NCBI GenBank assembly: GCA_013138865.1
Contig: WTBY01000004.1
Location: forward strand, 1-64,000
Length of the DNA stretch: 64,000 bases
Source: Helicobacteraceae bacterium
GTDB lineage: Bacteria; Campylobacterota; Campylobacteria; Campylobacterales; Sulfurimonadaceae
Direction of reading: 5' to 3'
Shown: piece after piece, positions 1 through 21,681 of the stretch
Numbering within the stretch: the first letter of the stretch is position 1
Layout: every line of letters starts with the position of its first letter
Position numbers and translations under genes: made by a program
Notes under the pieces: generated by a model
Databases searched by the model: none
Told to the model about the DNA's origin: nothing
The model's input: only the letters and a program-made list of their open reading frames with translations

Positions 1-492
1 CTTTTTTGATATTTTATTCAACTTTAGTTTACTAAGAAAAATATCACTTGAAAGGACTTGTTCACCGATCCTATTTATCCATAACCATGAAACTTTTAGT
101 TTTAGTATTTGAAATATGTAGGTTATAATAAATAGTACTATAGCATTTTTTGTACTTATTAGCTCATGTATTAATTTTTGACAATGTATATTTGCTTCTT
201 TATAGTCATCCTCACGCCTAAAAATTAATTTTAATTTTGATGATAAAATATATGGCTTTAAGTCATTATATATACCAAATTGATAATTTTGTGAAAATAT
301 AAGAAGTTTATCAATATTCAAATGATTAATTCTGTCCTGGTTATATATATTTTCACCTTTCTTACTTTTATCTATAAAACCTTCTATTTTAATATTAAAT
401 TTATTTTCTATATACTCTTTCAATTCTATTGTAGAGTCCGTATATGGAGTAATATATATTTTGTCTTCAGAGTTTAAATTAAGATCTTTCAT
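1..492 (-). CDS. Partial protein of glycan operon, unknown function (runs off left edge)
   Basis: An open frame of 164 codons starts with ATG at 492 and runs off the window, so the C-terminus is missing. Its ATG overlaps the TGA of the upstream nucleotidyltransferase gene (ATGA), so it belongs to the same operon. Visible features are a short beta-alpha-beta-like N-terminus (KIYITPYTD, then IEGFIDKSKKG), a charged helix near residues 94-112, a hydrophobic stretch at about 116-131 and the segment RIGEQVLSSDIFLSK at 141-155. That last segment faintly recalls the start of TIGR04372-type surface-carbohydrate glycosyltransferases. This is only an impression, and the downstream half would be needed to decide. 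A role in glycan assembly is inferred from context. Confidence 0.6.
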   Translation of the reverse strand, partial: MKDLNLNSEDKIYITPYTDSTIELKEYIENKFNIKIEGFIDKSKKGENIYNQDRINHLNIDKLLIFSQNYQFGIYNDLKPYILSSKLKLIFRREDDYKEANIHCQKLIHELISTKNAIVLFIITYIFQILKLKVSWLWINRIGEQVLSSDIFLSKLKLNKISKK

Positions 493-1199
493 CTGTTTTC
501 TATCTCATACATGTGAATTTGTACTAGAGCATAACTTTCAACACTTCCTATATCTCTATGGTAAACATCATTTATAAATGCCCCAATTTTTCCAGTAAAA
601 TGTGGTATCACGTCGTTACTAAAGTCAATCTTTTTAGTCCCTAAATCTTCTAAAAAGTTAAATATTGAAGGCTCACAAATATATACAGCACCATTTGCTA
701 AGTTTGATGGTGGGTTATCAACCTTTTCATGAAATTTTTGAACTATTTTATTATTATCTAGTTCAACTATACCACAACTACTAGGGTTGTCACTTCTAAA
801 TATCATCATAGTCATTTCACAATATTTTGCTCTTTTTTTATGAGTATCAATAAAATCATTGAAGTTACAGATAGACATATTATCAGCATGTATAAGCATA
901 AATGATTCATCATTAAAAAAAGATCTATTTGCTAAAAGTGTACCACCTGTGTCCAACAACTCTTCTTCATATACTAAAGTTATTTTATCCCTATATTTAC
1001 TCTGTTTAACATACTCTTCAACACTCTTGTGCAAATAAGATGTATTAATTAAAAAATCTGTTATACCTACTTCAGATAGATTATTTAACCAATACTCCAA
1101 CAATGGTTTTCCATTAATTGGAACTAAGCATTTAGGTATAGTGTCTGTAATTGGTCTCAACCTTGTTCCTAATCCAGCAGCTAATAATAAAGCTTTCAT
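489..1199 (-). CDS. Sugar-1-phosphate nucleotidyltransferase (HddC/RmlA-like)
   Basis: This 236-residue protein is a single GT-A-like nucleotidyltransferase domain. It starts with the NTP-binding signature LAAGLGTRLRPITD (residues 6-19) followed by PKCLVPINGKPLLEYW. The family joins a sugar 1-phosphate to an NTP, releasing pyrophosphate. The gene lies one base downstream of an HldE-like kinase/nucleotidyltransferase, so the substrate may be a heptose or another kinase-activated sugar, as with HddC of the GDP-heptose pathway. The nucleotide specificity (GTP, CTP or dTTP) cannot be read from the sequence. It lacks the C-terminal acyltransferase repeats of GlmU and is at the short end of the family. 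Confidence 0.8.
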   Translation of the reverse strand: MKALLLAAGLGTRLRPITDTIPKCLVPINGKPLLEYWLNNLSEVGITDFLINTSYLHKSVEEYVKQSKYRDKITLVYEEELLDTGGTLLANRSFFNDESFMLIHADNMSICNFNDFIDTHKKRAKYCEMTMMIFRSDNPSSCGIVELDNNKIVQKFHEKVDNPPSNLANGAVYICEPSIFNFLEDLGTKKIDFSNDVIPHFTGKIGAFINDVYHRDIGSVESYALVQIHMYEIENR

Positions 1200-1200
1200 A

Positions 1201-2622
1201 TTAATTTAGTTCACCTTTTAGTTCTTCTTTTGAAATAGGTATATTACCTACTCTTGCGACCTGAATAGCAGCTGCCACTGAACCAAGATAAGCACTTTGC
1301 CATATACTTGCACCAACACTCAATGCCATAGAGCTACTTATCATTAACGAATCTCCAGCACCACTAACATCTTTTACAATCTTACTTAGTGCTGGTATAT
1401 TATCTGTTAAGAAGCCGTTACCTTTATTGTAAATCATCAACCCCTCAGAACCTAATGTTGTAAAAATATACTTCGCATTTGTTTTTTCAGATAACTCCTC
1501 TGATAATACAACTAAACCAGAATCAAAATCATTCACAGATAGCCTAATTTCTCTCTCAGTAGGAGTAAGAAGTGTCATATTTTTAAACTTTGATATATCA
1601 CCTATCTGAGATGAACTTTGTGAGTCTGCTGACATTAAAATATTGTTTTTCTTCCCAAGTTCTGATATTTGCTCTATAATATCTTTTGTTAAAACTCCAT
1701 AGCTAAAATCTGAAAATATTATTAAATTTATTTTATCAATATTATCTTTGATCTCTTTTAGTATATTATTCTCAATATCTTTACTTATTGAATGTTGTTT
1801 AAGATGATTGACTCTTAGTAATGTTTTACTATTTGCTCTAAATCTTTGTTTTAGTGTAGTAGGTCTAGTAGTATCTGTATATAATGATATATCAATATTC
1901 AATTTACTTAACTTTTCTTCCACATAAGTATAGTTTTCATCATTACCTAAAACTGAAATAAACTTAACATTTGCACCAAGTGTTTTAGCATGACTTGCTA
2001 CTATAGCAGCCCCACCAATAAACTTGTCACTCATAATTGGACTAACTACAATTGTTGGATCTTCTTGACTCATACCTATTGGATCACAACTAATGTATTC
2101 ATCAACAATAGTGTCACCAATAACTAACACATTCAAGTTACTAAATTTTTCAATAATAGTTTTAATCTCATTAACTTCAATGCAATGTCTATCGATATAG
2201 TTAGAGCATTTTTTTAAACTATTTTTACTATATAAAAAATCATCTTTTAATAAATCTAATGATGAAAAGCCTATCTCTCCTGAACTAAATAACAAAGAGC
2301 CATCGTATCCTTTAACAATTTCTAGCTCTTTGTTGTAATGGTTTTCATACTCTTTACCCTTTACAACAATATCGGGCTCATATTTCTTGATATAATATAC
2401 CGCTGGGATATCTAATATAAATGCTTCATCAACATAACTTGTTGCTTTTATAAACTCCAATCTTACATCTTGTGAAATTCCCTTATTTGAAGAGAGACGA
2501 TCACTATTAACACCAACTATTAAATAATTCCCACTATCTTTGGCAAACTTAAGGAATCTTAGATGACCTGGGTGAAGAATATTAAAATCACCGCTTACAA
2601 ATACTTTATTTATTTTTTTCAT
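1201..2622 (-). CDS. Bifunctional HldE-like protein, nucleotidyltransferase domain first, PfkB kinase second
   Basis: This 473-residue protein has two domains. Residues 1-135 form a cytidylyltransferase-like domain with the HxGH motif (NILHPGHLRFL) and GVNSDRLSSNKG. Residues 160-473 form a PfkB carbohydrate kinase with VIGDTIVDEY, GGAAIVASHAKTLGA and the catalytic loop DVSGAGDSL. Both halves resemble HldE, which phosphorylates heptose 7-phosphate at C1 and then adenylylates heptose 1-phosphate. Classical HldE has the kinase first and the transferase second; here the order is reversed. Both catalytic signatures appear intact. The product is probably an ADP- or CDP-activated heptose-like sugar for the glycan built by this operon, which is inference. 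Confidence 0.8.
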   Translation of the reverse strand: MKKINKVFVSGDFNILHPGHLRFLKFAKDSGNYLIVGVNSDRLSSNKGISQDVRLEFIKATSYVDEAFILDIPAVYYIKKYEPDIVVKGKEYENHYNKELEIVKGYDGSLLFSSGEIGFSSLDLLKDDFLYSKNSLKKCSNYIDRHCIEVNEIKTIIEKFSNLNVLVIGDTIVDEYISCDPIGMSQEDPTIVVSPIMSDKFIGGAAIVASHAKTLGANVKFISVLGNDENYTYVEEKLSKLNIDISLYTDTTRPTTLKQRFRANSKTLLRVNHLKQHSISKDIENNILKEIKDNIDKINLIIFSDFSYGVLTKDIIEQISELGKKNNILMSADSQSSSQIGDISKFKNMTLLTPTEREIRLSVNDFDSGLVVLSEELSEKTNAKYIFTTLGSEGLMIYNKGNGFLTDNIPALSKIVKDVSGAGDSLMISSSMALSVGASIWQSAYLGSVAAAIQVARVGNIPISKEELKGELN

Positions 2623-2626
2623 TAAC

Positions 2627-3355
2627 CTAATAACTACCTAAGTCAAGTTTAATAATACTACCAGTAATTAATAAATTTTTCGTATTAATCAAATTCTCAA
2701 TATATGGCGATACTTCATTTGGCATTGAAAATTTACCTAGTGGCTGTTCTTGCTTAACTTTTTTATACTTATTATTATCAATTGTTTGCTTTTTATCCCA
2801 GTCGCTACCTTTATGCCCTAAGATTCCTGGCAATACTGCACATATTAATATATTATATTTCAAATATTCACTTGATATATTTTTTACATAAGTATTAATT
2901 AAACTTTTACTTAGTGTGTATGAGGGTGATGCTTTTGCATGTAAAGAAGCAGTTGAGCCTATATATATTATTTTACTAGGATCGCCTTTTAGTTTTTGAT
3001 ATAACAATTCATTTATTTTAAGAGATACTGTAAAATTATTGTAAATACTTTGATTTAAAATATCAATATCTATAGGATGGCAATCATTTTCTAACTTTGT
3101 TCCAAAATTATGGACGATAGAGACAATATTTAAACCCTCAATTTTTTTAATTAATTTTTCATTTACATCATCTGTAGATAAATCTATCTCTATACAGATG
3201 TGCTTTAGCTTACTATTTAGCTGTTTTAGTGCAATACCTAAATTTTTTTCACTTCTTGAAGTAAGTATTATATTGTAACCAGCGTATGAGAGTTCTTTGG
3301 CAATTTCTAAACCTAATCCTCTGCTAGATGCTGTGACCAATATATACTTTAACAT
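2627..3355 (-). CDS. SDR-family NAD(P)-dependent oxidoreductase
   Basis: A 242-residue classical short-chain dehydrogenase. The Rossmann glycine motif is TASSRGLG (about residues 8-15). The catalytic Ser-Tyr-Lys set is visible as YIGSTASLHA and YTLSK (about 131-150). The family reduces or oxidises a hydroxyl or keto group using NAD(P)H. It abuts the radical SAM gene upstream and lies four bases before the HldE-like gene, so it is cotranscribed within the glycan operon. It probably tailors a sugar or polyol precursor; the substrate cannot be determined from sequence. Confidence 0.8.
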   Translation of the reverse strand: MLKYILVTASSRGLGLEIAKELSYAGYNIILTSRSEKNLGIALKQLNSKLKHICIEIDLSTDDVNEKLIKKIEGLNIVSIVHNFGTKLENDCHPIDIDILNQSIYNNFTVSLKINELLYQKLKGDPSKIIYIGSTASLHAKASPSYTLSKSLINTYVKNISSEYLKYNILICAVLPGILGHKGSDWDKKQTIDNNKYKKVKQEQPLGKFSMPNEVSPYIENLINTKNLLITGSIIKLDLGSY

Positions 3356-4423
3356 TTAAACAAACCCTAGATGTTCAACATCTAAATAATCTAAAATCAT
3401 TTTATTTTTATCGTTTGCAACACAATGGTTTTGACAATCCTTAGAAGGATCTATTTTAAAAAATTTATCTTTATCATTAAACCAAAACTTTTTAAAACTT
3501 TTTTCTTTAATGCTACCTACTAATCCATTTTCTAAATTATATGCCTTATCCTGACAAGGATAAATATTTAAATCTGCCCCTATAACAGGAAGTATCTGTG
3601 AATATGGACACCATGTATAATCTTTATTAAACTTATCTTCAAGCAGATGATAACTATCAAACACCTCAAAATTTTCATCATCTAACTCATCTTTTACTTT
3701 TTTAGATAATGCTTTTGCCTCTTTATAAAATGTTTCGTGATACTCATTGTTTTTTTCACCTTCGTTGGCAACTACACAACCTGAGAGTTTAATACTATCT
3801 ACCCCTATGCTTTTCATAAGTTCAGAAAACTCATATATCTTAGTATAGTTTTTCTCATCAATAATAAAACTAACCCCTAGGTTACAACTTCTATTTTTTA
3901 ATGCAGCGAAGTTTTTCATATTTTCAATTATTTTACTAAACTCACCTACCTTTACATCTCTTGCTTTTGCATAACTTTCATCATCATATCCATCTATCGA
4001 AACTCTAAGCCATGTAGCATGATGTGCAAAAAGTTCAGCAACTTCTCCATTTAACTTACTTCCATTTGTTAAGCTAGCAAAAGATATATTATTATCTATA
4101 ATTTTTTTTACTGTATCAAGAAAGAATCTATAAGTAAAAGGCTCACCACCTCCGCTAAAAGTTATAGCTTTCACTCCCATATCTGAGCAATCTTCTATAA
4201 TTTCCATCATTTTATCTTTAGGTATGAAATCTCTCTCAACCATATCTTGACCCAACTGAAGATGATCTACTTTATAAGCACAGTACCAGCAGTTGTGGTT
4301 ACATACATTAGTAGGTTTAATTCTTATATGTATTGGTGCTTTTATCTGATCAACTTCTTTTGATAAGCTATCCAATTTATCTTGATAGTGAAATACTTTT
4401 AAACTTGAATATTTATTTGCCAC
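3356..4423 (-). CDS. Radical SAM/SPASM domain protein
   Basis: A 355-residue radical SAM enzyme. The cluster-binding motif CNHNCWYC (CxxxCxxC, about residues 42-49) is followed by the GGGEP motif that contacts SAM (SGGGEPF, about 91-97). A C-terminal SPASM-type region carries further cysteines (WCPYSQ, IYPCQDK, DCQNHCVAND) for auxiliary iron-sulfur clusters. The start is GTG at 4423, preceded by an AGGA box at a reasonable distance. A second protein of the same architecture is encoded near the head of the operon (13.9-15.0 kb). SPASM enzymes often modify peptides but also act on aminoglycoside and sugar substrates, so a sugar-modifying role here is an inference. Confidence 0.85.
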   Translation of the reverse strand: MANKYSSLKVFHYQDKLDSLSKEVDQIKAPIHIRIKPTNVCNHNCWYCAYKVDHLQLGQDMVERDFIPKDKMMEIIEDCSDMGVKAITFSGGGEPFTYRFFLDTVKKIIDNNISFASLTNGSKLNGEVAELFAHHATWLRVSIDGYDDESYAKARDVKVGEFSKIIENMKNFAALKNRSCNLGVSFIIDEKNYTKIYEFSELMKSIGVDSIKLSGCVVANEGEKNNEYHETFYKEAKALSKKVKDELDDENFEVFDSYHLLEDKFNKDYTWCPYSQILPVIGADLNIYPCQDKAYNLENGLVGSIKEKSFKKFWFNDKDKFFKIDPSKDCQNHCVANDKNKMILDYLDVEHLGFV

Positions 4424-4432
4424 AACTCATCC

Positions 4433-5095
4433 TTATTCAAAATATATAAATTCGTATTCGCCTGTATAACCGAACTCTTCAAAAATCCAAGTCCACTCAT
4501 CAGGTTTAAAAAATGACTCACAAGTTAAAGCCCAGCATTCAAGATTAAATAGTTCTTGATCATTTCTGTAAGCTTCCATCATCACAAACTTATTTTTAGC
4601 AACTCTTTCTATTTCTAGTAAAGCATTTTTAAGATCATAAATTTTTAAGTTGTGCAATGCTCCTAAAGAGATTACCAAATCAAAACTTTTATCTTCATAT
4701 TTATACTTATCTTGTGCTTTGTGGATATATAAATTTTCTTTTACACCTTCTAATGCATTCTCAAGACCATGTTTTGATATATCAAAACCTTCTACTGTAA
4801 TTCCTGGAAGTAGTTGAGTCAACTCATATATTAAAAAAGCTTTACCACAACCAACATCTAATACTTTTGATTTAGAAGTTAAACTATACTCTTTAATCAA
4901 ATCTTGAGCTATCTCTTTCCATCTACCATCATACGTATAGCCACCATAGCCATATCGTCGATCACCATCCCAGTAATCAAACTCATACTCTTTTGCTTTT
5001 GACATGCAATGCACTTTGTCATCTACCATTCTATCTATATATTTTCTTGCGGTTTTTTTATGTAATTTATTAAATATATTTAATAATTTTCCCAT
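4433..5095 (-). CDS. Class I SAM-dependent methyltransferase
   Basis: A 220-residue Rossmann-fold methyltransferase. SAM-binding motif I is VLDVGCGKAFL (about residues 78-88), followed by GFDIS and later FDLVISLGALHNL. The N-terminal segment YWDGDRRYGYGGY is a distinctive conserved stretch. The gene overlaps the cytidylyltransferase gene upstream by 16 bases. C. jejuni MeOPN loci carry two methyltransferase genes beside the four donor-synthesis genes, and this operon also has two (this one and that at 8.8-9.5 kb). One of them may therefore methylate the phosphoramidate group, but which one cannot be told from the sequence. Confidence 0.8.
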   Translation of the reverse strand: MGKLLNIFNKLHKKTARKYIDRMVDDKVHCMSKAKEYEFDYWDGDRRYGYGGYTYDGRWKEIAQDLIKEYSLTSKSKVLDVGCGKAFLIYELTQLLPGITVEGFDISKHGLENALEGVKENLYIHKAQDKYKYEDKSFDLVISLGALHNLKIYDLKNALLEIERVAKNKFVMMEAYRNDQELFNLECWALTCESFFKPDEWTWIFEEFGYTGEYEFIYFE

Positions 5096-5835
5096 TTTTT
5101 ATCCTCGTATGCGCTTAAATCACTTAACGTGTCAACTTCAATCCATCCACCCTCAACTATAACTGGCTTAGCATCTATTAAAAAATCAATTATAAGTTGT
5201 ATAAAACTAGTCATATACATATTGTTAAAATCTTTTCCATCATACATATCGTCTCTATTTAGATTTTTATAAAATGCTATCACTTCATTGATTACTTTTT
5301 TAGAAATTTTTATTAACCCTATATATTGACCATCAATTTCATTATAGCTATGTGGTACTTTTCCTATTTCAATAATTTTTCCATTTTCTATTTTCAATGT
5401 TTCTGCATCATCTAGTGGATTATCCATTCTTATTTGCCATAGTTCTTTCCACTCCTTATCAACTACAACTGAAAAATCATCATCAGATACAATTAGTTTT
5501 TTTAATATCTCTTTTGTATAAATAATATCAGCATATGAAATGATTAAATCATCGTTCATAAACTCTTCTGCACAAAACAGTGTAGATACCATATTGGTTT
5601 TATCATAATTTATATTTGTATAAGTAGTAATACCTTTAGTATCTAAATATGCACTTAAAATATCTTTTTTATATCCATTCACAATAGCAATATTATCAAT
5701 ACTACACTCTTTCATCACTTCTAAAATGTAATCTATAATTGGCTTTTTATTATATTCTACCATACATTTTGGTCTATCATTAGTTAGAGGTCTAAGTCTT
5801 TTGCCCTCTCCTGCTGCTAATATTATTGCTTTCAT
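5080..5835 (-). CDS. CTP:phosphoglutamine cytidylyltransferase-like (Cj1416-type)
   Basis: A 251-residue nucleotidyltransferase with LAAGEGKRLRPLTND (residues 6-20), PKCMVEYNKKPIIDY and a metal-binding acidic segment ISYADIIY. NPLDDAETLK and NNMYMTSFIQ match what I know of the LicC-like group containing C. jejuni Cj1416. That enzyme couples CTP to L-glutamine phosphate, giving CDP-L-glutamine. The assignment rests on context: it overlaps by four bases a Cj1417-like glutaminase gene, followed upstream by a Cj1418-like glutamine kinase gene. Alternative: a LicC-type choline-phosphate cytidylyltransferase, for which no kinase or choline gene is visible nearby. Confidence 0.8.
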   Translation of the reverse strand: MKAIILAAGEGKRLRPLTNDRPKCMVEYNKKPIIDYILEVMKECSIDNIAIVNGYKKDILSAYLDTKGITTYTNINYDKTNMVSTLFCAEEFMNDDLIISYADIIYTKEILKKLIVSDDDFSVVVDKEWKELWQIRMDNPLDDAETLKIENGKIIEIGKVPHSYNEIDGQYIGLIKISKKVINEVIAFYKNLNRDDMYDGKDFNNMYMTSFIQLIIDFLIDAKPVIVEGGWIEVDTLSDLSAYEDKKWENY

Positions 5836-6458
5836 CTAAAGAACTCTTTTATTAAATTTATTTGATTTATATCAAATACTTTTTCTCTTTCACTATGCCA
5901 CATTTGTGCAAATATTTTATACTTTTTATGTTCAATAGCTTTAATAACACTATTTTTATTGGTAGCTACTACAATAAAATCATCAGAAATCTGATCTATT
6001 TCAAAGTTATGATAAGAGTTAACATAATCTATTTTATATAAGTTGCTACTATATTGTGAATCACTGTTTACCATAATTTTCTCTTTCTTATTCACTTCGC
6101 CATCTATCATCTTAAAAGTACTTCCAAAAAAACTTGCTATTATTTGCATTCCTCTACATATTCCAAAAATTGGTATTTCTTTCACTATACAATACTCAAG
6201 TAATTTTTTTTCAAAATCATCTCGTTTTTTAGATAGTTCATTTATATTGCAAACATCCAAATCATTTCCACCTGTTAGTATTACACCATCTATCCCAATA
6301 TCATCAAAATAGTTTATAAAATCAACCTCATAAGGTAGCACAATTGGTAACAATTGACAGACATCTACAAGTTTACAATATTTTATATCTAAAGATTCTC
6401 TAATTTCATAATACGAACTATTTTCTACCAATCGTTGTGTAATAGCAATTTTTTTCAT
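5832..6458 (-). CDS. Class I glutamine amidotransferase-like hydrolase (Cj1417-type, gamma-glutamyl-CDP-amidate hydrolase)
   Basis: A 208-residue peptidase C26/class I GATase domain. The nucleophile elbow is FGICRGMQ with the catalytic Cys near residue 101; ILTGGNDLD is the oxyanion region, and the catalytic His-Glu pair is probably in MWHSERE near residue 191. In C. jejuni, Cj1417 hydrolyses CDP-L-glutamine to glutamate plus cytidine diphosphoramidate. Four-base overlaps with the cytidylyltransferase on one side and the PEP-synthase-like kinase on the other give the same three-gene group as in C. jejuni. The generic annotation would be gamma-glutamyl-gamma-aminobutyrate hydrolase (PuuD), but no putrescine pathway gene is present. 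Confidence 0.82.
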   Translation of the reverse strand: MKKIAITQRLVENSSYYEIRESLDIKYCKLVDVCQLLPIVLPYEVDFINYFDDIGIDGVILTGGNDLDVCNINELSKKRDDFEKKLLEYCIVKEIPIFGICRGMQIIASFFGSTFKMIDGEVNKKEKIMVNSDSQYSSNLYKIDYVNSYHNFEIDQISDDFIVVATNKNSVIKAIEHKKYKIFAQMWHSEREKVFDINQINLIKEFFR

Positions 6459-8776
6459 GAAATTATTCTAACTTGTTTATTTGCTGCATCTACAGTTAAA
6501 ACATTTGCTTTAATATATTTTGAATACATACTCTCTCCACAACCTATGACTGCTGGTATTCCAAGTTCTGCACATCGTATAGCCATATGTGAGTTAGCTC
6601 CGCCATAACAAGTGATTAACCCTCCAATATTTTTTGAGAATAGGTAGTCATAACCTGGGTCTGCGGACTTAATACATATAATCTTGCCATTTACGGCAAC
6701 ACTATCATTCAAATCCAAATCAATAACTTTTTCACTTATGCTACCAAGTGTTACAAAATTTGCCTCTTCAACATTTAGCTCAAAACTGTATATATCATCT
6801 TCATTTATAATTAAGGTTGGTAGTTTTATCGCTTGTGTGTATTTATAATACTCTCTATTTTTTGTAATGTCTGCTTCAAAAATATCTTTTACGTCTCTGT
6901 GATCTAAAGTAGCATATAGATTTTTCAATTTTTGAATATCTAAATAAGCCAAATCTTCTTTAATAAGTCCAAGTTTTTCTCCAAACTCTTCAATATAACT
7001 CAATACTTTACTTAAATGCTTAGTAAATATAAATTTTGAATACTCTCTACCCTCTATTGACTCTTTAATAAAAGCCATCATTCCATCAACATTACACCGT
7101 AATCCATTTTCAACTATTAGTTGTTCTATTTTTTCTATCTGAATTGAAGTAAATTGAAAATTATCTTGAATAGTTTCATATTCAAAATTTGAAAAATATT
7201 TATCATAAGCTTCATCATATCTTAAAGAAGATATATCATAAGTACCAGGTCGAAGGTGTCCATATTTTTTTAAAAATTTTTCTTTAGCTAAAAATTGTTT
7301 ATCATTGGTTAGCTTTTTAGAAATAGTTTCAATACTATTTAAAAATTTGTTTTTATCCTCTAAGCTTAATACCCCCTCATCTACGAGTGAGTTTAAAAAC
7401 TGCACTGCTATAAATGCAGCTCTAGCTACTCCAGCAAATGGTAAAGTCCCGTATCTTTTGCAATCTTCTATCAACCAGTATATTTTATCTATAGTTGAAA
7501 GACTTGAGTGAACTATATCGCTATACTTCTCTTTTAATAACTCTACTTTTTCTAAATCTTTTTTATAAAATCCATTTTTATTGTCAATAATTTTATTTGT
7601 TAGTTCTAAAAGCTCAAACTCTATCCGTTTAATTTCATTATCACTAAAACCTCTAGTTTTCATACTTTCAAGTTTTTTAGCAATTCCAAAATAGTAACAA
7701 GAATAGACAATTTCAAATTCAATTTTATCATGATGATTGGAATTTTTTGACAACTCCTCAAGATAATAATTAACTAATTTTGAGGCTATTGATTCATTTA
7801 ATTTTTTAGGTATAAAAGAGTTAAATGATATTCTAATATCTATATATGGAACTCCTAAAAAAGAGACTAAAAGAGGGAATGATCTTAAATTTCTATATCC
7901 ATAATTATCTCTTTGATAAGCCCATATTTCATCTGTTACTAACTCTTTGTAAAGAGATAGTGCTAATCTTTTAGGTTTTACACCAATAATTTCAGCTGGG
8001 TTCCAGTCTGGCATCACACCAAATATGCTCTTGTTACCTAATATTTTCGGGTGTGGTGCATTAAGTTTTTTGAGTTTTTTATACAATTTTTTTAAGCTTT
8101 CATCCAAATCAATACCACTTAAGTCTGTTTTATTCTGTTGTACAATGGCTCTAACTTGTAATATATAAAGCTTACCATTAGCAAATGCAAACTCTATATC
8201 TAAAAAATTATTATTAAATATCTTTTCACACTCTTTAGAAGCTATAATTATTTGTTTAACTCTTTTGTCAGTGTATTTATTATAATTTTTAAACACTATT
8301 GTAGTCTTTAAATTTTTACCATCACCTTGAGTTACGCTACTAGTACTTCCACTTTCATCATAGTTAATTATATAATAAGGAGCTAATGTATCTATGTCTG
8401 AAGTAAAAACCACTCCACTCATAGAAACATTTTTAAGCATAGGTTGAACAAAAACTTCATCATTTTTATTTAAACTTTTACCATAAGATTTTATGACAGT
8501 TTGTATCGCTTTATCTAACTCTTCTTTATTGCGCTTTACATTAGCTACACTATCAAATCCACCTGCATTTGAAGTTATATTATTGTCTTCATTTACTGAT
8601 GAAGATCGAACTATTAAGTTTTGGTCAAATTTTGCAACAATATCTTCTAGTATCAGATGGCTACTATCTAAATACTCACTTACCTTAAACCGTAACATTG
8701 GTAATACATCAGCAAAAGATATGATTTTAGCTAACTGTTCAAGCGTGTGTGATTTAGAAGACAACTTTAGTTTCAT
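6455..8776 (-). CDS. L-glutamine kinase-like PEP-synthase-family enzyme (Cj1418-type)
   Basis: A 773-residue protein. The N-terminal part is an ATP-grasp domain of the PEP/pyruvate-binding type (LIVRSSSVNEDN, about residues 54-65, then NAGGFDSV). The C-terminus is a mobile phosphohistidine domain with GGANSHMAIRCAELGIPAVIG (His near residue 733). A PEP/pyruvate carboxylate-binding barrel is absent. C. jejuni Cj1418 has this layout and comparable length; it phosphorylates the amide of glutamine using ATP, releasing AMP and phosphate, the first step of MeOPN synthesis. The adjoining hydrolase, cytidylyltransferase and APS-kinase-like genes make this the best reading. A generic tool would call it phosphoenolpyruvate synthase. 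Confidence 0.82.
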   Translation of the reverse strand: MKLKLSSKSHTLEQLAKIISFADVLPMLRFKVSEYLDSSHLILEDIVAKFDQNLIVRSSSVNEDNNITSNAGGFDSVANVKRNKEELDKAIQTVIKSYGKSLNKNDEVFVQPMLKNVSMSGVVFTSDIDTLAPYYIINYDESGSTSSVTQGDGKNLKTTIVFKNYNKYTDKRVKQIIIASKECEKIFNNNFLDIEFAFANGKLYILQVRAIVQQNKTDLSGIDLDESLKKLYKKLKKLNAPHPKILGNKSIFGVMPDWNPAEIIGVKPKRLALSLYKELVTDEIWAYQRDNYGYRNLRSFPLLVSFLGVPYIDIRISFNSFIPKKLNESIASKLVNYYLEELSKNSNHHDKIEFEIVYSCYYFGIAKKLESMKTRGFSDNEIKRIEFELLELTNKIIDNKNGFYKKDLEKVELLKEKYSDIVHSSLSTIDKIYWLIEDCKRYGTLPFAGVARAAFIAVQFLNSLVDEGVLSLEDKNKFLNSIETISKKLTNDKQFLAKEKFLKKYGHLRPGTYDISSLRYDEAYDKYFSNFEYETIQDNFQFTSIQIEKIEQLIVENGLRCNVDGMMAFIKESIEGREYSKFIFTKHLSKVLSYIEEFGEKLGLIKEDLAYLDIQKLKNLYATLDHRDVKDIFEADITKNREYYKYTQAIKLPTLIINEDDIYSFELNVEEANFVTLGSISEKVIDLDLNDSVAVNGKIICIKSADPGYDYLFSKNIGGLITCYGGANSHMAIRCAELGIPAVIGCGESMYSKYIKANVLTVDAANKQVRIIS

Positions 8777-9543
8777 ACTTTTTTAGCTGTCCAACACCTA
8801 GTAGTATATTTAATATCAAACTCTATTGGCATTTTTTCTCGCATTTTATTTGTAATTTTTTCAAATAATTCTCTACCTTCATTCGTAGCTAAATCCCAGT
8901 ATTTGTTTTTTACACTTTGCCACGCTAAAATATAATTTTCTAAAGTTTGGTGAAAATAAAAATCTACCTCTATATAAAATATTTCATCAAATAAATTTTT
9001 ATTTTTTTCAATTACCTCTCTTTGGTCTTCTCTTCTTGTTCCTCTATTATAATTAGCTACAAACTCTTCTATAATATCTTCTGCTTGTTTTTGTATTGGA
9101 TCATTTAAGTCTCTATGATTCCACATGCAAGAGAAATATCCTTCATCTTTTAAAAGTCTATGCGTCTCTTTAAGTGCTAAATTTCTATCCATTACATTAA
9201 AACTACTTCCAAAAGTTACCCAATCAGCACATTTATCTTCTAAAGTTGTTTCCAGTCCAGTAGCTCTAATCCAATTTATCTTTGCGCCTTCTGTTTTTTG
9301 AATACCTATTTCTCTCATGGCATCATTAGGCTCTATGGATACTGTTTCTAATCCTCTTTCGAGCAACATAATTGATAAATTACCCGTACCAGCACCAATA
9401 TCAACAACTTTAAAATCATCTTTTATATTTGCTTCTACATATCGTTTTAATACATCAATAGCTTTTGGTGCATAATTTGGTCTAAATTCATAAAATTTAG
9501 CATGTTTTGTATAACTCCAGTGATTTTCTACCAATTCTTTCAT
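8773..9543 (-). CDS. Class I SAM-dependent methyltransferase (UbiE/MeOPN-cluster type)
   Basis: A 256-residue methyltransferase with SAM motif I VVDIGAGTGNLSI (about residues 46-58) and the acidic motif II residue in SIEPND. The N-terminal YTKHAKFYEFRPNYAP resembles the lead-in of the methyltransferase_11 family. Four-base overlaps link it to the glutamine-kinase-like gene downstream and the CDP-amidate-kinase-like gene upstream. In C. jejuni, Cj1419 is a methyltransferase in the same position next to Cj1418, thought to methylate the phosphoramidate. The same role is inferred here. Confidence 0.82.
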   Translation of the reverse strand: MKELVENHWSYTKHAKFYEFRPNYAPKAIDVLKRYVEANIKDDFKVVDIGAGTGNLSIMLLERGLETVSIEPNDAMREIGIQKTEGAKINWIRATGLETTLEDKCADWVTFGSSFNVMDRNLALKETHRLLKDEGYFSCMWNHRDLNDPIQKQAEDIIEEFVANYNRGTRREDQREVIEKNKNLFDEIFYIEVDFYFHQTLENYILAWQSVKNKYWDLATNEGRELFEKITNKMREKMPIEFDIKYTTRCWTAKKV

Positions 9544-10055
9544 TTAATATCTCCTATTAATTCTAAAATTTTATAAACTTTTGTGTCAAGGTCATTTAGC
9601 TGTGTGTTGTCTATTATTAACTCACAATTTAGTGGCTTATCAAAAGGTGCGTTTATACCAACTATGTCATCTAATTTACCTTTTAGAGCTTTTGAATATA
9701 ACTCTTTTTGATCTCTTCTTATAAGCTCTTCCATACTACACTCTATAAAAATTTCTATATAATTATTGATCTCTTTTCTATTTAAATCATGTACTTCTTT
9801 ATATAGTGACATGGTTGTGCATACTACATTGATATTTTCTGAAACTAAAAATTTGCACATTCTATGAATTCTTTTTGCATTTTCCAACCTATCTTGCTGA
9901 TTATGTCTTAAGTCATTTCCTAGAATTTCTCTAAAGCTATCTCCATCTAAAAAAACAGTGTTCGAATCTTTTCTTTTAAGTTTATCATATACACCTTTTC
10001 CTATAGTTGTCTTTCCACTACCGCTTAATCCAGTTATCCATATTGCTTTAGCCAT
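9540..10055 (-). CDS. Cytidine diphosphoramidate kinase-like P-loop kinase (Cj1415-type, APS-kinase fold)
   Basis: A 171-residue P-loop kinase of the adenylylsulfate-kinase fold. Walker A is GLSGSGKT (residues 9-16), followed by LDGDSFREILGNDLRHN and the lid-like segment LYSKALKGKL. C. jejuni Cj1415 is about this size; it was annotated as APS kinase but phosphorylates the 3'-hydroxyl of cytidine diphosphoramidate. No ATP sulfurylase gene is visible in the window, and the other three MeOPN donor genes are present, favouring the Cj1415 role. A true APS kinase cannot be excluded because a sulfotransferase-like gene lies directly upstream. Confidence 0.78.
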   Translation of the reverse strand: MAKAIWITGLSGSGKTTIGKGVYDKLKRKDSNTVFLDGDSFREILGNDLRHNQQDRLENAKRIHRMCKFLVSENINVVCTTMSLYKEVHDLNRKEINNYIEIFIECSMEELIRRDQKELYSKALKGKLDDIVGINAPFDKPLNCELIIDNTQLNDLDTKVYKILELIGDIK

Positions 10056-11226
10056 TATTTAACTTCCATATTTTTTTTGAGGAGTTTAAAAACCAAATAC
10101 TATCTTTTACTCTTTGTTTATAGGCTAAAAATGCACTCTTATGCTCTTGTATATTTAAACTTTTATCTAATGCCTCTTTCTCTATTTTTGTTGGCACTTC
10201 AATCATATCTTCTAGAATACCCATATATTCACTATCTTCTAATAAATATTTATACTCTTTATGCTTAAGTGCACTCAACGTATTTAAAACAAATAGATCG
10301 TGTGTGTTAAAACACTTTTCATTAGTTGAAGTTTTGGTATGTGAAGAAGAAAAACCATTTATCTTACCTACCGCTCTATTATCTCCCCAATATTTTAAAC
10401 CACAAAATGTACTTTGCATTAATGAGTCTTCAAAATCAATATTTAAAAATTTTGCTATTTTTTTTAATACTTTTTTTGGATTGTCATGTAATTTTTCTAA
10501 CTTTACTGCCAAAAGTAACAACTTATAGTCATGTGCAACTTTTTTCCAACCGATTAATTGATGCTTATAGTACCATCCATACTGTCCATCATAAACTGTA
10601 TGGTATTCTTCATATAGTTTACTTTCGTTATTTTCTTGTAAATTACCTTTATGCTGTTTTATATGAGAATACAATGCTCTAACAGGCTCTCTATATGTTC
10701 CTAAATATTTTGCATTTGGAAAATCCTGGCAAAACTCTGAAACCCTCTCAGAAGCAGGTGTATGAAGTTGATAATTTATTAATTTTTTTAATAACACATC
10801 ATTGCCTTGTGCTATCTCGTATGAATAATGACTAGCAATAAAAAAAAGTTTCCTATTAAATAAGTTATATTTTTTATGATACTTTTTCATAGATATTTTA
10901 AATTTTTCTACATCTACACTAAGACAAGTTACGGAGTCATCACCCATAAACTCAAAATTAGATCCTTTATCATATTTACCATCAAAAGCTCCCCTATGGT
11001 CTTTAATAAAAGTATCAAGCAGTATGTCAAAATCAGATATATTGTTATTAATAATTTTCTGCCAAAAACCATTTTCACCATAAAAATTAAATAGATACCC
11101 ACCAGGGATGGTCATAATATTTTTATGGTTATCTAGCAAACTACCAAGAAAAAAACTGCCACTTCTTCCCCAAAAAAATATTGCTGAGATATCAATATTA
11201 GTATCGAGAAAGTATTTTAAACTCAT
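10048..11226 (-). CDS. Sulfotransferase-family protein
   Basis: A 392-residue protein with the two nucleotide-binding elements of the sulfotransferase fold. The 5'-phosphosulfate-binding loop is FFWGRSGSFFLGSLLDNH (about residues 17-34), and a 3'-phosphate-binding segment is GTYREPVRALYSHIKQH (about 176-192). The family moves sulfate from PAPS to a hydroxyl. The gene overlaps the Cj1415-like kinase gene by eight bases. The product of that kinase would be a 3'-phosphorylated nucleotide carrying a phosphoramidate, formally analogous to PAPS. This protein is therefore a candidate phosphoramidate transferase as well as a candidate ordinary glycan sulfotransferase. The sequence alone does not decide between them. 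Confidence 0.72.
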   Translation of the reverse strand: MSLKYFLDTNIDISAIFFWGRSGSFFLGSLLDNHKNIMTIPGGYLFNFYGENGFWQKIINNNISDFDILLDTFIKDHRGAFDGKYDKGSNFEFMGDDSVTCLSVDVEKFKISMKKYHKKYNLFNRKLFFIASHYSYEIAQGNDVLLKKLINYQLHTPASERVSEFCQDFPNAKYLGTYREPVRALYSHIKQHKGNLQENNESKLYEEYHTVYDGQYGWYYKHQLIGWKKVAHDYKLLLLAVKLEKLHDNPKKVLKKIAKFLNIDFEDSLMQSTFCGLKYWGDNRAVGKINGFSSSHTKTSTNEKCFNTHDLFVLNTLSALKHKEYKYLLEDSEYMGILEDMIEVPTKIEKEALDKSLNIQEHKSAFLAYKQRVKDSIWFLNSSKKIWKLNNG

Positions 11227-12120
11227 CTATTTATCTTTTACTATATTTACAATTGATTCTGAATCAATAAGTAACTCTTTTCTTAGATAATCACAATTAC
11301 CAATTTTATGTATATATTCGTTATCAATTGCTATTTTTACAATATTTGCATACACATTGTGTTTAACTGCAATATCTGAAATAATCGTACCTAGTCCACC
11401 ATCTTTAAAATGCTCTTCAACTACAAAAATATCCTCATACTTGTTCAATATTTCTAAAATTTTCTCAACATCTATTGGTGAAATCATTGGAACTGAAATA
11501 ACACTCACCTCATCTAACTTTTCACTAGCTTTCAATACTTCGTCAACTATTGAACCATGAAATAGCAAACACTGTTTTGCTCCTCTTTTTAAATATATTG
11601 GTTTTTTAATATCAATATTATCATCAAAAATTATTGGTTCACCACTTCTACTAATTCTAATGTAGGTTGGTTTATCACTCTCTATTGCATAAGCTACAGC
11701 TTTTTGAACTTGCACTGGATCACTAGGAGAGATAATATTCAAATTAGGGATAGTTTTAGCCAATGCAATATCTTCAACACTATAGTGTGTCATACCAGCA
11801 GGTGCATATGTTATACCTGAACCTATTCCAATAAGCACTATTGGCAAGTTATGATAAGCTATATCAAGTCTTACTTGTTCATAACACCTCATCAACACAA
11901 ATGGTATGATATTGTAATAGAAGACCTTATGTCCACTAAGTGCCATTCCACTTGCTAGTCCAATTGTAGCTTGCTCATTAATACCAGGGTTTATATACTG
12001 TGTTGGTAACTCTTTTTGAAAAGCGTCCCATACACCAAATCCAGCATCACCAGCTATTAAAAATCCATTTTCATTATTTTTACAATAATTACTTATCTCT
12101 TTTGCTGCAGTATTTCTCAT
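11227..12120 (-). CDS. Transketolase, C-terminal subunit (split form)
   Basis: A 297-residue protein with the pyrimidine-binding and C-terminal domains of transketolase: QYINPGINEQATIGLASGMA, including the conserved Glu that activates ThDP, and FVVEEHFKDGGLG near residue 240. It overlaps the N-terminal subunit gene by four bases. Together they would form a two-subunit ThDP enzyme moving a two-carbon ketol unit between sugar phosphates. The position inside a glycan operon suggests synthesis of an unusual sugar rather than the pentose phosphate pathway, which normally uses a single-chain transketolase. The substrate is unknown. Confidence 0.85.
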   Translation of the reverse strand: MRNTAAKEISNYCKNNENGFLIAGDAGFGVWDAFQKELPTQYINPGINEQATIGLASGMALSGHKVFYYNIIPFVLMRCYEQVRLDIAYHNLPIVLIGIGSGITYAPAGMTHYSVEDIALAKTIPNLNIISPSDPVQVQKAVAYAIESDKPTYIRISRSGEPIIFDDNIDIKKPIYLKRGAKQCLLFHGSIVDEVLKASEKLDEVSVISVPMISPIDVEKILEILNKYEDIFVVEEHFKDGGLGTIISDIAVKHNVYANIVKIAIDNEYIHKIGNCDYLRKELLIDSESIVNIVKDK

Positions 12121-12908
12121 ATTTTACACTCCAACTCTTTCACGCCCTGTTCTAAAAGCTCATTAGTTACAATAAAATAGTGCCATTTCATTTCATCTTC
12201 CATAAAAGAGACACCTTTTCCTTTTGTAGTATCACATATTATTATTTTTGGTTTATCAGATGGTGTTTGGATTGCGCATTTAATTTCATCCATATTATGT
12301 CCATCTACTCTCAATACATCCCAGTTAAAGCTTTCAAATTTTTTATCAATTGGCTCAAATGAGACAAGTTCACTTGGTCTTCCATAGCCTTGAAGATCAT
12401 TTCTATCTATAAACACAACTAAATTGTCAAGTCCCATTTTAGGTGCTAACATGGCAGCTTCCCAAATCGAGCCCTCTTGCGTCTCACCATCGCCCATTAA
12501 AACATACACTTTACCATCTAAATTTTTAACTTTTTTAGAGTATGCAAATCCTAAACTCTGTGGCAATCCATGACCTAAACTTCCACTTGATACTTCTATG
12601 GCAGAGTTTGTCTCTTTATCTAAATGAGCAGGTAATGCCCCAGCATTTTGATAATAACTTAAAAAATCATTCTCAGGTAGGTAGCCTTTTTCATACAAGG
12701 TTGAATACAGTGCCATAGCACCATGTCCCTTACTTAAAATAAAAATATCTCTATTTGGATCATCGAATGACTCGATATTCATAATATCAAAATATAATAC
12801 ACATAAAATATCAACGCATGATAATGCTGTACCAGTATGTGGTCCTTTAGAACTATTTGCAATTTTTAAAATATTTTTTCTAATATTGACTGCTGTTTTT
12901 GTTAGCAT
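12117..12908 (-). CDS. Transketolase, N-terminal (ThDP-binding) subunit
   Basis: A 263-residue protein with the ThDP/Mg-binding half of transketolase. GPHTGTALSCVDIL sits near the N-terminus, LSKGHGAMALYSTLYEKG at about 58-75, and the metal-diphosphate signature GDGETQEGSIWEAAM at about 140-154. It overlaps the epimerase gene upstream by seven bases and the C-terminal subunit gene by four. Split transketolases are common outside central metabolism; this pair lies in an operon with two radical SAM enzymes and an epimerase. A specialised sugar-building role is inferred. Confidence 0.87.
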   Translation of the reverse strand: MLTKTAVNIRKNILKIANSSKGPHTGTALSCVDILCVLYFDIMNIESFDDPNRDIFILSKGHGAMALYSTLYEKGYLPENDFLSYYQNAGALPAHLDKETNSAIEVSSGSLGHGLPQSLGFAYSKKVKNLDGKVYVLMGDGETQEGSIWEAAMLAPKMGLDNLVVFIDRNDLQGYGRPSELVSFEPIDKKFESFNWDVLRVDGHNMDEIKCAIQTPSDKPKIIICDTTKGKGVSFMEDEMKWHYFIVTNELLEQGVKELECKI

Positions 12909-13897
12909 TTATCGTCTCCTAAACATTCAAACCAATCTTTAGTTGCATCTTTTATAGAGTTTTCATCCCACACTGGTGCCTCTCTCCACTGCTCAATGTT
13001 ATTAAGCATAATTTGAACACCTTTTTCAAAATTTATTTTTGGACTCCATCCAAGTTTAGTTTTTATTTTACTAATATCGGCATACGTACAATCAGGCTCT
13101 CCTGGTCTTTTAGGAATATACTGCTTTTTTCCACCTAAGAGTTCTACAAGATAGTTTATACTGTAAGTATTATCACTTCCAACATTAAATATTTCATTTG
13201 ATATATCACTCTGACTCGCAAGATAACATGCGTCAACTATATCAGTTACATATGTAAAGTCTCTAGTTTGTTTACCATCTCCAACTATAGTTAAAGGTTT
13301 ATTGTTTAAAAGTTGTGCTAAAAATACACCAAAAACAGCTCCATAAGTGCCACTTGTACGATGTCTTACACCATAAACATTAAAAAATCGCATAGATATT
13401 ACAGGCATATTGTAAACTTGACCCCAATGCATAACATATTGTTCCCCAACTGTTTTTGTATGTGCATAAGGGTATTCTGGTTGAATAGATGAGGCTTCAG
13501 GAGTTGGATACACTTCAGGTATGCCATAGCATGAACTAGATGCTGCATAAATAAATTTCTTAAGTTTTTTACTTTTTTTAGAAGCTTCTAAAACTCTTAT
13601 AGTTCCATCAACATTCGCTTTATGGTACTGCAGAGGGTTATTAATAGAGGGTACTATGTCCGCTAAAGCTGCATAATGAAACACATAATCAACATCATCA
13701 AAATACTCTTCTAAACCAATACCATAATTACCAATATCTACATTGACAAATTTAACAACATTTTTATGATGTTCTATATTTGACAATTGTCCATTTGCTA
13801 GATTATCAATAATGGTAACTTCGTAACCATTTTTAATTAATAAATCAACCATATGTGAACCAATAAACCCTGCTCCACCTGTTACAATAGCTTTCAT
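12902..13897 (-). CDS. NAD-dependent sugar epimerase/dehydratase (GalE/WbpP-like)
   Basis: A 331-residue extended SDR. The NAD-binding motif is VTGGAGFIGSHMVD (residues 5-18). The catalytic region contains AASSSCYG and YAHTK (YxxxK, about 153-157), with FFNVYG and GDGKQTRDFTYVTDIV downstream, as in UDP-hexose 4-epimerases and WbpP-type enzymes. It should epimerise or dehydrate a nucleotide-activated sugar in the cytoplasm. It lies nine bases downstream of the first radical SAM gene. Substrate specificity cannot be assigned. Confidence 0.88.
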   Translation of the reverse strand: MKAIVTGGAGFIGSHMVDLLIKNGYEVTIIDNLANGQLSNIEHHKNVVKFVNVDIGNYGIGLEEYFDDVDYVFHYAALADIVPSINNPLQYHKANVDGTIRVLEASKKSKKLKKFIYAASSSCYGIPEVYPTPEASSIQPEYPYAHTKTVGEQYVMHWGQVYNMPVISMRFFNVYGVRHRTSGTYGAVFGVFLAQLLNNKPLTIVGDGKQTRDFTYVTDIVDACYLASQSDISNEIFNVGSDNTYSINYLVELLGGKKQYIPKRPGEPDCTYADISKIKTKLGWSPKINFEKGVQIMLNNIEQWREAPVWDENSIKDATKDWFECLGDDKC

Positions 13898-13906
13898 ACC
13901 ATACCT

Positions 13907-14998
13907 TTAAATAAAATTATCATGAGCATTTGGATTTTTTATTCTCCATAAATATCTATTTACTTCATCCATCCTACAGTTAACTCTACAATTATTAATA
14001 TCTAACTCATTTTGAATAAAATTATAGGATTCTTTTCGCTTTTTACCTTCCCAAATCTCCTCAAAACTATTATCATAAATACTTCCATAACAAAACTTAT
14101 CATCACCCAAATAAGCACTACATCCAAACACTTTACCATCTGCAGCTATGTACCCCCAAAAAAATGGTGTTGAGTGGCACTTATCATAAGCTTGACTTTT
14201 TTGAACATACTTTTTCATAGTATTTGCACGAAATATAACACTAAAGTTTTCATTAGAAACAGCAGTAACTTCATCTTCTAAATTCATCATTGAACTATAG
14301 TCAATATTTTCATATTTATCAGTTTCACTAAAAAGATGCTGAGAATATGGTTTGATAACTAGGTAATCGACTCCTAGCTCCTTACATTTTTTTGCTAACA
14401 AAACAGTTTCATGTTGATTATCCGGGAGCAAAAGCATCTGTACACCTATTGTACAATTTAAGTTATTTTTATTTTTATATTCTATAGCATTTTTGATGTT
14501 TTCCATAACACGTTCAAAATCTTTTTCTGTAGTTTGATGAATATTTGCGTATGTTTCAGCGGTACCAGCATTCAAACTTACCTTAATCCAAGAACAGTTT
14601 TCTACATACCTTTGTACTGCCCTTTTATGTGATGGCACAAAATTTGTAGTTAACGATGTATCAATTCCTACCTTACTACAATGTTCGACAATTAGATCTA
14701 AATCTTTAAAAAGTAGCGGTTCACCCTCTCCTGCAAACATTACACTCTTTACACCATTGCTTGCCATATTTGATATAGCAGATTTTAATATGTTAAAATC
14801 TAAACCCACATTTTCATATCCCATATAATCCAAAGCACAAAAAGTACACCTATGATTACATCCACCATATGGTGAAACTTCTACATAAATAGGATAAATT
14901 TTTTTTAACTTATTCCAATCATTTTTAGCCTCATACCATTTTGATACTCGTACTGGATGTAAGATTAATTTATGGCTATCTATATTAAATTTATCCAT
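13907..14998 (-). CDS. Radical SAM/SPASM domain protein
   Basis: A radical SAM protein of about 363 residues with cluster motif CNHRCTFC and the SAM-contact motif AGEGEPLLF. A C-terminal SPASM-like region has cysteines in YDKCHSTPFFWGY, FGCSAYLG and NNCRVNCRMDE. I chose ATG 14998 over ATG 15013. The sequence between them, ATGAGGAGAATAGTA, contains AGGAG at good spacing for 14998, so the upstream ATG is part of the ribosome site. With this start the overlap with maf is eight bases. It has the same architecture as the protein at 3.4-4.4 kb. It probably modifies a glycan precursor; the reaction is unknown. Confidence 0.85.
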   Translation of the reverse strand: MDKFNIDSHKLILHPVRVSKWYEAKNDWNKLKKIYPIYVEVSPYGGCNHRCTFCALDYMGYENVGLDFNILKSAISNMASNGVKSVMFAGEGEPLLFKDLDLIVEHCSKVGIDTSLTTNFVPSHKRAVQRYVENCSWIKVSLNAGTAETYANIHQTTEKDFERVMENIKNAIEYKNKNNLNCTIGVQMLLLPDNQHETVLLAKKCKELGVDYLVIKPYSQHLFSETDKYENIDYSSMMNLEDEVTAVSNENFSVIFRANTMKKYVQKSQAYDKCHSTPFFWGYIAADGKVFGCSAYLGDDKFCYGSIYDNSFEEIWEGKKRKESYNFIQNELDINNCRVNCRMDEVNRYLWRIKNPNAHDNFI

Positions 14999-20015: not shown

Positions 20016-20055
20016 AAAATGTACTAAGACTACTGAAGTAGTCTTAGTACATTTT
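20016..20055 (-). terminator. Strong hairpin terminator at the end of the second flagellin gene
   Basis: An 18-bp perfect inverted repeat (20016-20033 and 20038-20055) with loop TGAA. On the minus strand its 3' arm ends in ACATTTT. The 5' arm overlaps the last codons and the stop of the flagellin gene, so it acts as the transcript end of that gene. Confidence 0.75.
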
Positions 20056-21544: not shown

Positions 21545-21596
21545 AACTATTTCCTTTTATGTCGTAATTGCATCCATGCAATATTTTGACAATAAA

Positions 21597-21612
21597 AGCA
21601 AACTATGTTCCA
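21597..21612 (-). promoter_or_regulatory. Sigma54 (RpoN)-like promoter of the second flagellin
   Basis: On the minus strand the sequence reads TGGAACATAGTTTGCT, which fits TGGCAC-N5-TTGC with GG and GC separated by exactly ten bases. It lies about 53 bases before the ATG, after the terminator of the upstream flagellin gene. Confidence 0.75.
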
Positions 21613-21643
21613 GTTTTACATTTTATTAAGAAAGTATTAAAAT

Positions 21644-21669: not shown

Positions 21670-21681
21670 GGTAACTAAAAA

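Follow-up and report, generated by a model that had tools for sequence, protein, structure and literature searches.

Described phosphoramidate and flagellin glycan systems

Phosphorus-nitrogen (P-N) bonds are rare in biology. The best characterised glycan phosphoramidate is the decoration of the Campylobacter capsule, which affects phage binding and serum resistance. The MeOPN capsule system of Campylobacter jejuni (Cj1415-Cj1422) comprises four donor enzymes and a Cj1419-type methyltransferase, encoded by overlapping genes. The MeOPN locus of C. jejuni strain GP013 (L047) served as reference. Its order is a DUF2972 transferase, then Cj1420-, Cj1419-, Cj1418-, Cj1417-, Cj1416- and Cj1415-type genes, followed by kpsC and kpsS.

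Flagellins are modified in other systems. Maf-type loci with pseudaminic acid genes occur in C. jejuni, Clostridium botulinum and a relative of the bacterium studied here (G015); the order in G015 is topA, flagellins and maf, then sugar genes. The type A flagellin of C. difficile and the b-type flagellin of Pseudomonas aeruginosa PAO1 have, according to the available text of one report, a CDP-activated phosphorus group on the glycan and a methyltransferase; the group is a phosphodiester-linked N-methylated threonine, with no P-N group (PMC11833859). The phosphate of the PAO1 flagellin (pa1088-pa1091) was considered as a phosphoramidate and rejected, because the same text assigns N,N-dimethylthreonine linked through this phosphate (2025, PMC11833859). 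No paper describing phosphoramidate on flagellin was found in the literature. The word occurs in a C. botulinum flagellar paper as a reference-list entry only, cited for a C. coli nonulosonic sugar.

Gene content of the locus

The window, the whole stretch of 64,000 nucleotides that was analysed, harbors a five-gene cassette at 5080-10055 (-), whose open reading frames lie at the coordinates originally given and overlap successively by 4 bp each. The cassette is part of an operon of 16 genes with spacings of -23 to +9 bp. It has no gaps and begins with maf, which lies next to flagellins, as the original prediction had it. Promoter and terminator scans gave the same result as for shuffled sequences. 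The features are as follows.

489..5095, minus strand: downstream operon genes (sugar nucleotidyltransferase, HldE-like protein, dehydrogenase, radical SAM protein, methyltransferase MT2)
5080..5835, minus strand: CTP:phosphoglutamine cytidylyltransferase, Cj1416-type, LicC-like (251 aa; PF00483/PF12804)
5832..6458, minus strand: gamma-glutamyl-CDP-amidate hydrolase, Cj1417-type, peptidase C26 (208 aa)
6455..8776, minus strand: L-glutamine kinase GlnK, Cj1418-type (773 aa)
8773..9543, minus strand: methyltransferase MT1, Cj1419-type, candidate phosphoramidate O-methyltransferase (256 aa)
9540..10055, minus strand: CDP-amidate 3'-kinase, Cj1415-type, APS-kinase-like (171 aa)
10048..11226, minus strand: sulfotransferase-fold protein, proposed phosphoramidate transferase (392 aa)
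11227..15013, minus strand: sugar-synthesis genes of the operon (split transketolase, epimerase/dehydratase, radical SAM)
14991..18629, minus strand: Maf flagellin glycosyltransferase with C-terminal extension, first gene of the operon (1212 aa; PF01973, PF20157)
20030..23196, minus strand: two flagellin genes (20030..21544 and 21682..23196), proposed final acceptors (Flagellin_N over cut-off in both)

Judged by its genes, the locus is fairly probably a flagellin-glycan operon that incorporates the whole pathway for a phosphoramidate donor. The pathway itself is already known; the setting is new. Compared with the C. jejuni MeOPN system, the cassette lacks kpsC/kpsS, a DUF2972 gene (the Cj1421/Cj1422 family) and a Cj1420-type methyltransferase. 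A sulfotransferase-family gene occupies the place of DUF2972, and the operon is led by maf beside flagellins. Compared with the Maf-type pseudaminic loci, the window has the phosphoramidate cassette and a transketolase/radical-SAM sugar module instead of the pseudaminic genes.

Donor enzymes

The five genes had been read as a Cj1415-Cj1419-type set, and identities of 40.6-71.5% to the C. jejuni proteins confirm the orthology. The cytidylyltransferase shares 52.6% identity over its full length with the product of the strain GP013 gene in the same position; in the PDB, a CTP:phosphocholine cytidylyltransferase comes closest to it. The hydrolase (40.6% identity) keeps the C, H and E catalytic motifs. 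Its best family is NF045546 with 181.5 bits, below the equivalog cut-off of 250, while the C. jejuni hydrolase reaches 330.7. The CDP-amidate kinase is 48.1% identical to its C. jejuni counterpart. MT1 shares 71.5% identity with the Cj1419-type protein and about 34% with the Cj1420-type protein. In a survey of 47 GlnK genes, 32 had an MT1 gene nearby.

GlnK shows 50.7% identity to the strain GP013 protein over its full length (783 columns). It had been described as a PEP-synthase-like kinase without the PEP-binding barrel, in keeping with its Pfam domains, PPDK_N and PEP-utilizers only; it thus has the ATP-grasp-like and phosphohistidine domains of a glutamine kinase. It scores 1013 bits against NF004508 (cut-off 501; C. 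jejuni protein 1173 bits), and all PEP synthase models of NCBIfam are far under cut-off. A grouping with true PEP synthases was thus not observed. His730, in the motif GGANSHMAIR, aligns with His737 of the C. jejuni protein. Taken by its gene content, the cell very probably makes 3'-phospho-CDP-amidate.

Sulfotransferase-fold gene and DUF2972

The gene at 10048-11226, which shares 8 bp with the CDP-amidate kinase gene, was not part of the original prediction. Its product matches PF00685/PF13469 over cut-off and contains a PSB-loop (GRSGS) and an R-x-P motif. The structure model (pLDDT 68.6) matches PAPS sulfotransferases with a Foldseek probability of 1.0. The protein resembles tyrosylprotein sulfotransferase and the CurM domain in its fold, in its 5' loop of phosphosulfate-binding type and in the R-x-P motif; the difference is the linkage to a CDP-amidate kinase cassette, not to sulfate activation.

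Sulfotransferase-like genes were located directly beside the cassette in 18 of 21 cases (P ~2e-10), in several phyla. They occurred in 14 of the 32 loci outside Campylobacter and Helicobacter, and DUF2972 in 12 of the 15 Campylobacter/Helicobacter loci; no DUF2972 match was present among the tagged window genes. On gene content, the two families are complementary by lineage and replace each other. A C. jejuni protein of the DUF2972 family, a capsule-transferase family, also modelled as a sulfotransferase, with weak Foldseek E-values, and DUF2972 appears to share this fold. Profile comparison of the two families was not significant (E 0.011, probability 3.9) and did not show homology; structure models were used instead. 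The stretch aligned in this comparison is the common R-x-P region.

It is proposed that the sulfotransferase-like protein and DUF2972 both use 3'-phospho-CDP-amidate, which is analogous to PAPS, as the donor for phosphoramidate transfer. They probably constitute a new transferase class.

Flagellar setting

Neither KpsC nor KpsS was detected in the window. The KpsC/KpsS pair is absent from the genome, where the sole Capsule_synth match is weak (28 bits), consistent with the earlier remark that no kps genes are visible. In the relative G015, pseudaminic-type sugar genes occupy the same topA-flagellin-maf site, where flagellin-sugar genes are interchangeable among relatives. The NeuB genes of the present genome are located on other contigs.

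A flagellar placement of the cassette was also found in Sulfuricurvum STB_35, an Arcobacteraceae MAG, the genomes G268 and G305, Pseudomonas and an Oscillospiraceae bacterium. The Pseudomonas cassette follows flgK-flgL. On the kinase tree, the flagellar/non-flagellar label changes at least six times. Most cassettes of Campylobacterota are non-flagellar, and many of those in relatives sit in non-flagellar sugar loci. The most similar kinase sequence (L151, 71%) comes from a locus whose retrieved 20 kb contain no flagellin. Helicobacter cassettes near topA showed no flagellin neighbour and were left out of the flagellar count. A flagellin match near the G216 cassette (249 aa, 39.9 bits) was short and weak and remained uncounted.

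Operon structure, the G015 site and the recurrent placement in unrelated lineages support the non-capsular, flagellar setting originally suggested. Since the operon is led by maf and flagellar placement recurs in unrelated bacteria, some flagella probably carry phosphoramidate chemistry. From this gene context we infer flagellin as the target.

Proposed pathway

Steps one to four are assigned by orthology, since the C. jejuni counterparts have been characterised (PMC11800397; PMC6429109). GlnK would phosphorylate the amide nitrogen of glutamine. The cytidylyltransferase would activate the phosphorylated product with CTP, and the C26 hydrolase would set free CDP-amidate. The APS-kinase-like enzyme would add a 3'-phosphate, yielding the PAPS-like 3'-phospho-CDP-amidate. 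The sulfotransferase-fold protein may then move the phosphoramidate onto a hydroxyl group of a sugar, with the 3'-phospho nucleotide in the role that PAPS has for sulfotransferases. Transfer by such an enzyme would explain why the pathway ends in a 3'-phosphorylated nucleotide. O-methylation by MT1 may occur before or after the transfer. Finally, Maf may place the decorated sugar, made by other operon genes, on flagellin.

It is tentatively suggested, at somewhat less than even confidence, that flagella of several unrelated groups carry phosphoramidate, attached by sulfotransferase-fold proteins including DUF2972, with 3'-phospho-CDP-amidate and not PAPS as donor. If true, the flagellar placement would extend P-N decoration to a protein-linked glycan in free-living bacteria of several phyla. 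The sulfotransferase reading would suggest how capsule transferases work that have a domain still listed as of 'unknown function', and some genes annotated as sulfotransferase or APS kinase may do no sulfation.

Alternative explanations and a second cassette

Pfam and NCBIfam name the P-loop kinase an adenylyl-sulfate kinase. Were it a true APS kinase, the five genes would not form one donor pathway. This is scarcely credible: the protein clades with Cj1415-type proteins, apart from CysC (tree support 100/99), and its family scores (NF004041 207.8 bits, apsK under cut-off) follow the pattern of the C. jejuni enzyme, opposite to that of CysC. A phosphodiester-linked amino acid instead of a phosphoramidate is very improbable. 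C. difficile and PAO1 flagellins offer the precedent of a phosphate-linked N-methylated threonine, with CDP-threonine as the predicted donor and a clustered methyltransferase gene, but the available text describes no glutamine kinase, hydrolase or 3'-kinase for these systems (PMC11833859). The window has all four donor enzymes, and its methyltransferase is of the Cj1419 type.

With a phosphoramidate donor as the preferred reading, its transfer and its target have to be considered. An ordinary PAPS sulfotransferase might sulfate the same glycan while another gene product transfers the phosphoramidate. The protein has the fold and motifs of PAPS enzymes and could use PAPS, since the genome carries real sulfate-activation genes (CysC-like kinase, CysN-like and PAPS-reductase-family genes). 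Its family nevertheless adjoins the CDP-amidate cassette in several phyla and alternates by lineage with DUF2972, a known phosphoramidate transferase family of apparently the same fold, which makes sulfation rather unlikely. It is likewise unlikely, and slightly more so, that the donor decorates another surface glycan, an O-antigen or exopolysaccharide, and that the flagellar neighbourhood is a shared sugar locus. The C. jejuni phosphoramidate does sit on capsule, and the non-flagellar cassettes of relatives point the same way; the leading maf gene, the exchangeable site and the recurrence in unrelated lineages argue for flagellin. The genome also harbors a second, divergent GlnK cassette, which the original prediction did not include. 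Its locus is of polysaccharide type, with glycosyltransferases and a glycerophosphotransferase-like gene. This favours a polysaccharide target for the pathway, yet the second cassette could itself serve the other glycans.

Donor pathway

The five cassette genes lie on the minus strand at 5080-10055, as originally predicted, with a 4-bp overlap between neighbours. They are listed here with the neighbouring genes of interest:

5080-5835 (-), cytidylyltransferase
5832-6458 (-), hydrolase
6455-8776 (-), L-glutamine kinase (GlnK, Cj1418-type)
8773-9543 (-), methyltransferase
9540-10055 (-), P-loop CDP-amidate kinase
10048-11226 (-), sulfotransferase-fold protein, 392 aa
14991-18629 (-), maf
20030-21544 (-) and 21682-23196 (-), flagellins

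In Campylobacter jejuni, Cj1415-1418 make CDP-phosphoramidate 3'-phosphate out of glutamine, ATP and CTP, while Cj1419 and Cj1420 are without assigned function. The O-methyl phosphoramidate (MeOPN) group is absent once Cj1421 or Cj1422 is lost (PMC11800397). Scanning named genomes with a ten-kinase alignment (A1) yielded C. jejuni loci. The locus of strain GP013 (L047) comprises a DUF2972 transferase, two methyltransferases, kinase, hydrolase, cytidylyltransferase, P-loop kinase, kpsC and kpsS, which is the order Cj1421-Cj1413. The proposed correspondence of the window cassette to Cj1415-Cj1419 holds: against L047, identity is 51% for the kinase, 41% for the hydrolase, 53% for the cytidylyltransferase, 48% for the P-loop kinase and 71% for the Cj1419-type methyltransferase. 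Such likeness reflects orthology, not chance, and the donor pathway is very probably present.

Pfam finds two PEP synthase domains in GlnK, one for ATP binding and one phosphohistidine domain, and nothing further. It is distinct from true PEP synthases: NF004508 yields 1013 bits (C. jejuni 1173), and every PEP synthase model stays far under its cut-off. H730 in the motif GGANSHMAIR aligns with C. jejuni H737, which we take to be the phosphorylated residue. For the hydrolase, gamma-glutamyl-CDP-amidate hydrolase is the best curated family, at 181 bits against a cut-off of 250 (C. jejuni 331), and the protein retains the C, H and E motifs. The P-loop kinase likewise stands apart from true APS kinases, forming one clade with Cj1415-type proteins in a 100/99 split from CysC of E. 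coli and of the own genome. Its family scores follow the C. jejuni pattern (NF004041 above, apsK below cut-off), and CysC shows the opposite. The CysC motif ISP is replaced by MSL, ISM or similar in nearly all aligned members of the Cj1415-type clade. In L032 (8715-10001), a CDP-amidate kinase and an apparent methyltransferase share a single 428-aa frame; this may be a natural fusion and, if real, would link the methyltransferase with the donor pathway.

Operon and flagellin locus

Sixteen same-direction genes extend from maf to a sugar nucleotidyltransferase (489-1199). With gaps of -23 to +9 bp in one direction, the flagellin glycosyltransferase gene maf and the cassette are expected to share a transcript. 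The reported vicinity of maf and flagellins was verified: maf heads the operon, and two flagellins and topA are located upstream. The rest of the operon (split transketolase, epimerase, HldE-like protein, dehydrogenase, two radical SAM proteins) resembles a gene set for making an uncommon sugar. In a family relative (G015), the topA-flagellin-flagellin-maf site is followed by NeuB-type synthase, PseG-like, aminotransferase, FliS-like and FliD-like genes, named by eye from their sequences. Since other sugar genes occupy the same site, it acts as a flagellin-sugar locus whose content can be exchanged.

The window Maf has 1212 aa, about 570 aa above the ~640-aa Maf of most relatives. Its extension comprises repeats of the form GxCxxxxxxxxxxxxIYIDxxxxETIxAxKP and has no Pfam match. 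Between maf and the flagellins (18856-19991, minus strand), small genes resemble two nucleotidyltransferases (MNT) and one HEPN-type partner, a toxin-antitoxin-like insertion. Similar pairs occur on contig 16 of the same genome (L015 15218-15963, L016 1191-1908).

Flagellar placement in other genomes

Sulfuricurvum STB_35 (G085; L023/L024, L037) harbors a sulfotransferase-family gene, CDP-amidate kinase (72%) and methyltransferase (82%), then maf, two flagellins and topA. In an Arcobacteraceae MAG (L034), four flagellins and maf immediately precede the cassette; in G268 and G305 the genes downstream of it include two flagellins, a methyltransferase and maf. In Pseudomonas-type loci (L086, L088, L103, L111), GlnK follows flgK and flgL (Pfam-confirmed in L111; L103 judged by a flgK-like gene, not by a flagellin-profile match), with a large multi-domain glycosyltransferase downstream. 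This position is the usual site of the flagellin glycosylation island. An Oscillospiraceae locus (L104) has a flagellin C-terminal domain near the cassette. Most cassettes of Campylobacter and Helicobacter are beside DUF2972 genes, some with kpsC/kpsS.

The flagellar label requires at least six changes on the 46-row kinase tree, which points to repeated recruitment rather than a single inherited accident. The case for flagellar placement rests on synteny and recurrence, and flagellin is the likely acceptor of the phosphoramidate. The original observation is confirmed and its interpretation supported: a known donor pathway is found in a new setting. Among flagellar modifications already described, the nearest is the N-methylated threonine that C. 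difficile and P. aeruginosa attach through phosphate (PMC4441256, PMC11833859). No description of phosphoramidate on flagellin was found in the open literature, most subscription papers lying outside the search.

Omnitrophota L051 (9893-21118) encodes the sugar module of the window (epimerase 56%, radical SAM 52%, HldE-like, split transketolase) alongside GlnK, hydrolase and cytidylyltransferase. Since both modules occur in this distant phylum, they travel together.

Candidate transferase

A probable transferase class was overlooked in the original prediction. The gene at 10048-11226 overlaps the P-loop kinase gene by 8 bp and matches Pfam sulfotransferase families. A GRSGS 5' loop and an R-x-P motif are present. 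Searched against the PDB, the family profile hit PAPS sulfotransferases (CurM at E 6e-17), as did the structure model (pLDDT 68.6, pTM 0.76; Foldseek probability 1.0). Members adjoin cassettes in Bacillota, Pseudomonadota, Planctomycetota, Bacteroidota, Spirochaetota and Campylobacterota. Direct adjacency was found for 18/21 family genes versus 194/940 available positions (P ~2e-10), a figure that somewhat favours the claim, the profile being seeded from cassette neighbours.

DUF2972, the family of known MeOPN transferases (PMC5808241), occurs instead in Campylobacter and Helicobacter loci, 12 of 15 versus 0 of 32 others. For the C. jejuni DUF2972 protein L047:3-1235 (partial at a contig edge; model pLDDT 83), all 50 best PDB matches are sulfotransferases, with weak E-values (best 1.4e-3). 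An APS-kinase relative would form a 3'-phospho nucleotide donor, which a sulfotransferase relative would then use. This mechanism is coherent; the donor choice of the transferase is a proposal. The sulfotransferase-fold protein may well be the phosphoramidate transferase.

Proteins of L034 (13685-15157, 490 aa) and L101 (4911-6758, 615 aa), related-looking and without Pfam match, share the motifs GGxQRTSxGYLWGI and HRNPxxExxS and look like a further sulfotransferase-type family adjoining the cassette. In Helicobacteraceae-type relatives (L168, L169, L170, L197), five or six consecutive DUF2972 frames adjoin the cassette. This pattern hints at transferase genes that have expanded or been frame-shifted and may be phase-variable.

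Rest of the genome

A whole-genome search revealed no KpsC/KpsS pair. A second, deeply divergent cassette of GlnK, hydrolase and cytidylyltransferase is located in a polysaccharide-type locus on contig 16 (L016 10821-15231), followed by a CDP-glycerol glycerophosphotransferase-like gene. Its kinase (1012 aa, N-terminal extension of ~230 aa) forms a deep separate clade with L029. Contig 16 also encodes a CysN-like GTPase with a C-terminal PemK-like toxin domain match (L015 9149-10891) and a second APS kinase that carries a fused DUF2061 membrane domain (L015 11828-12553).
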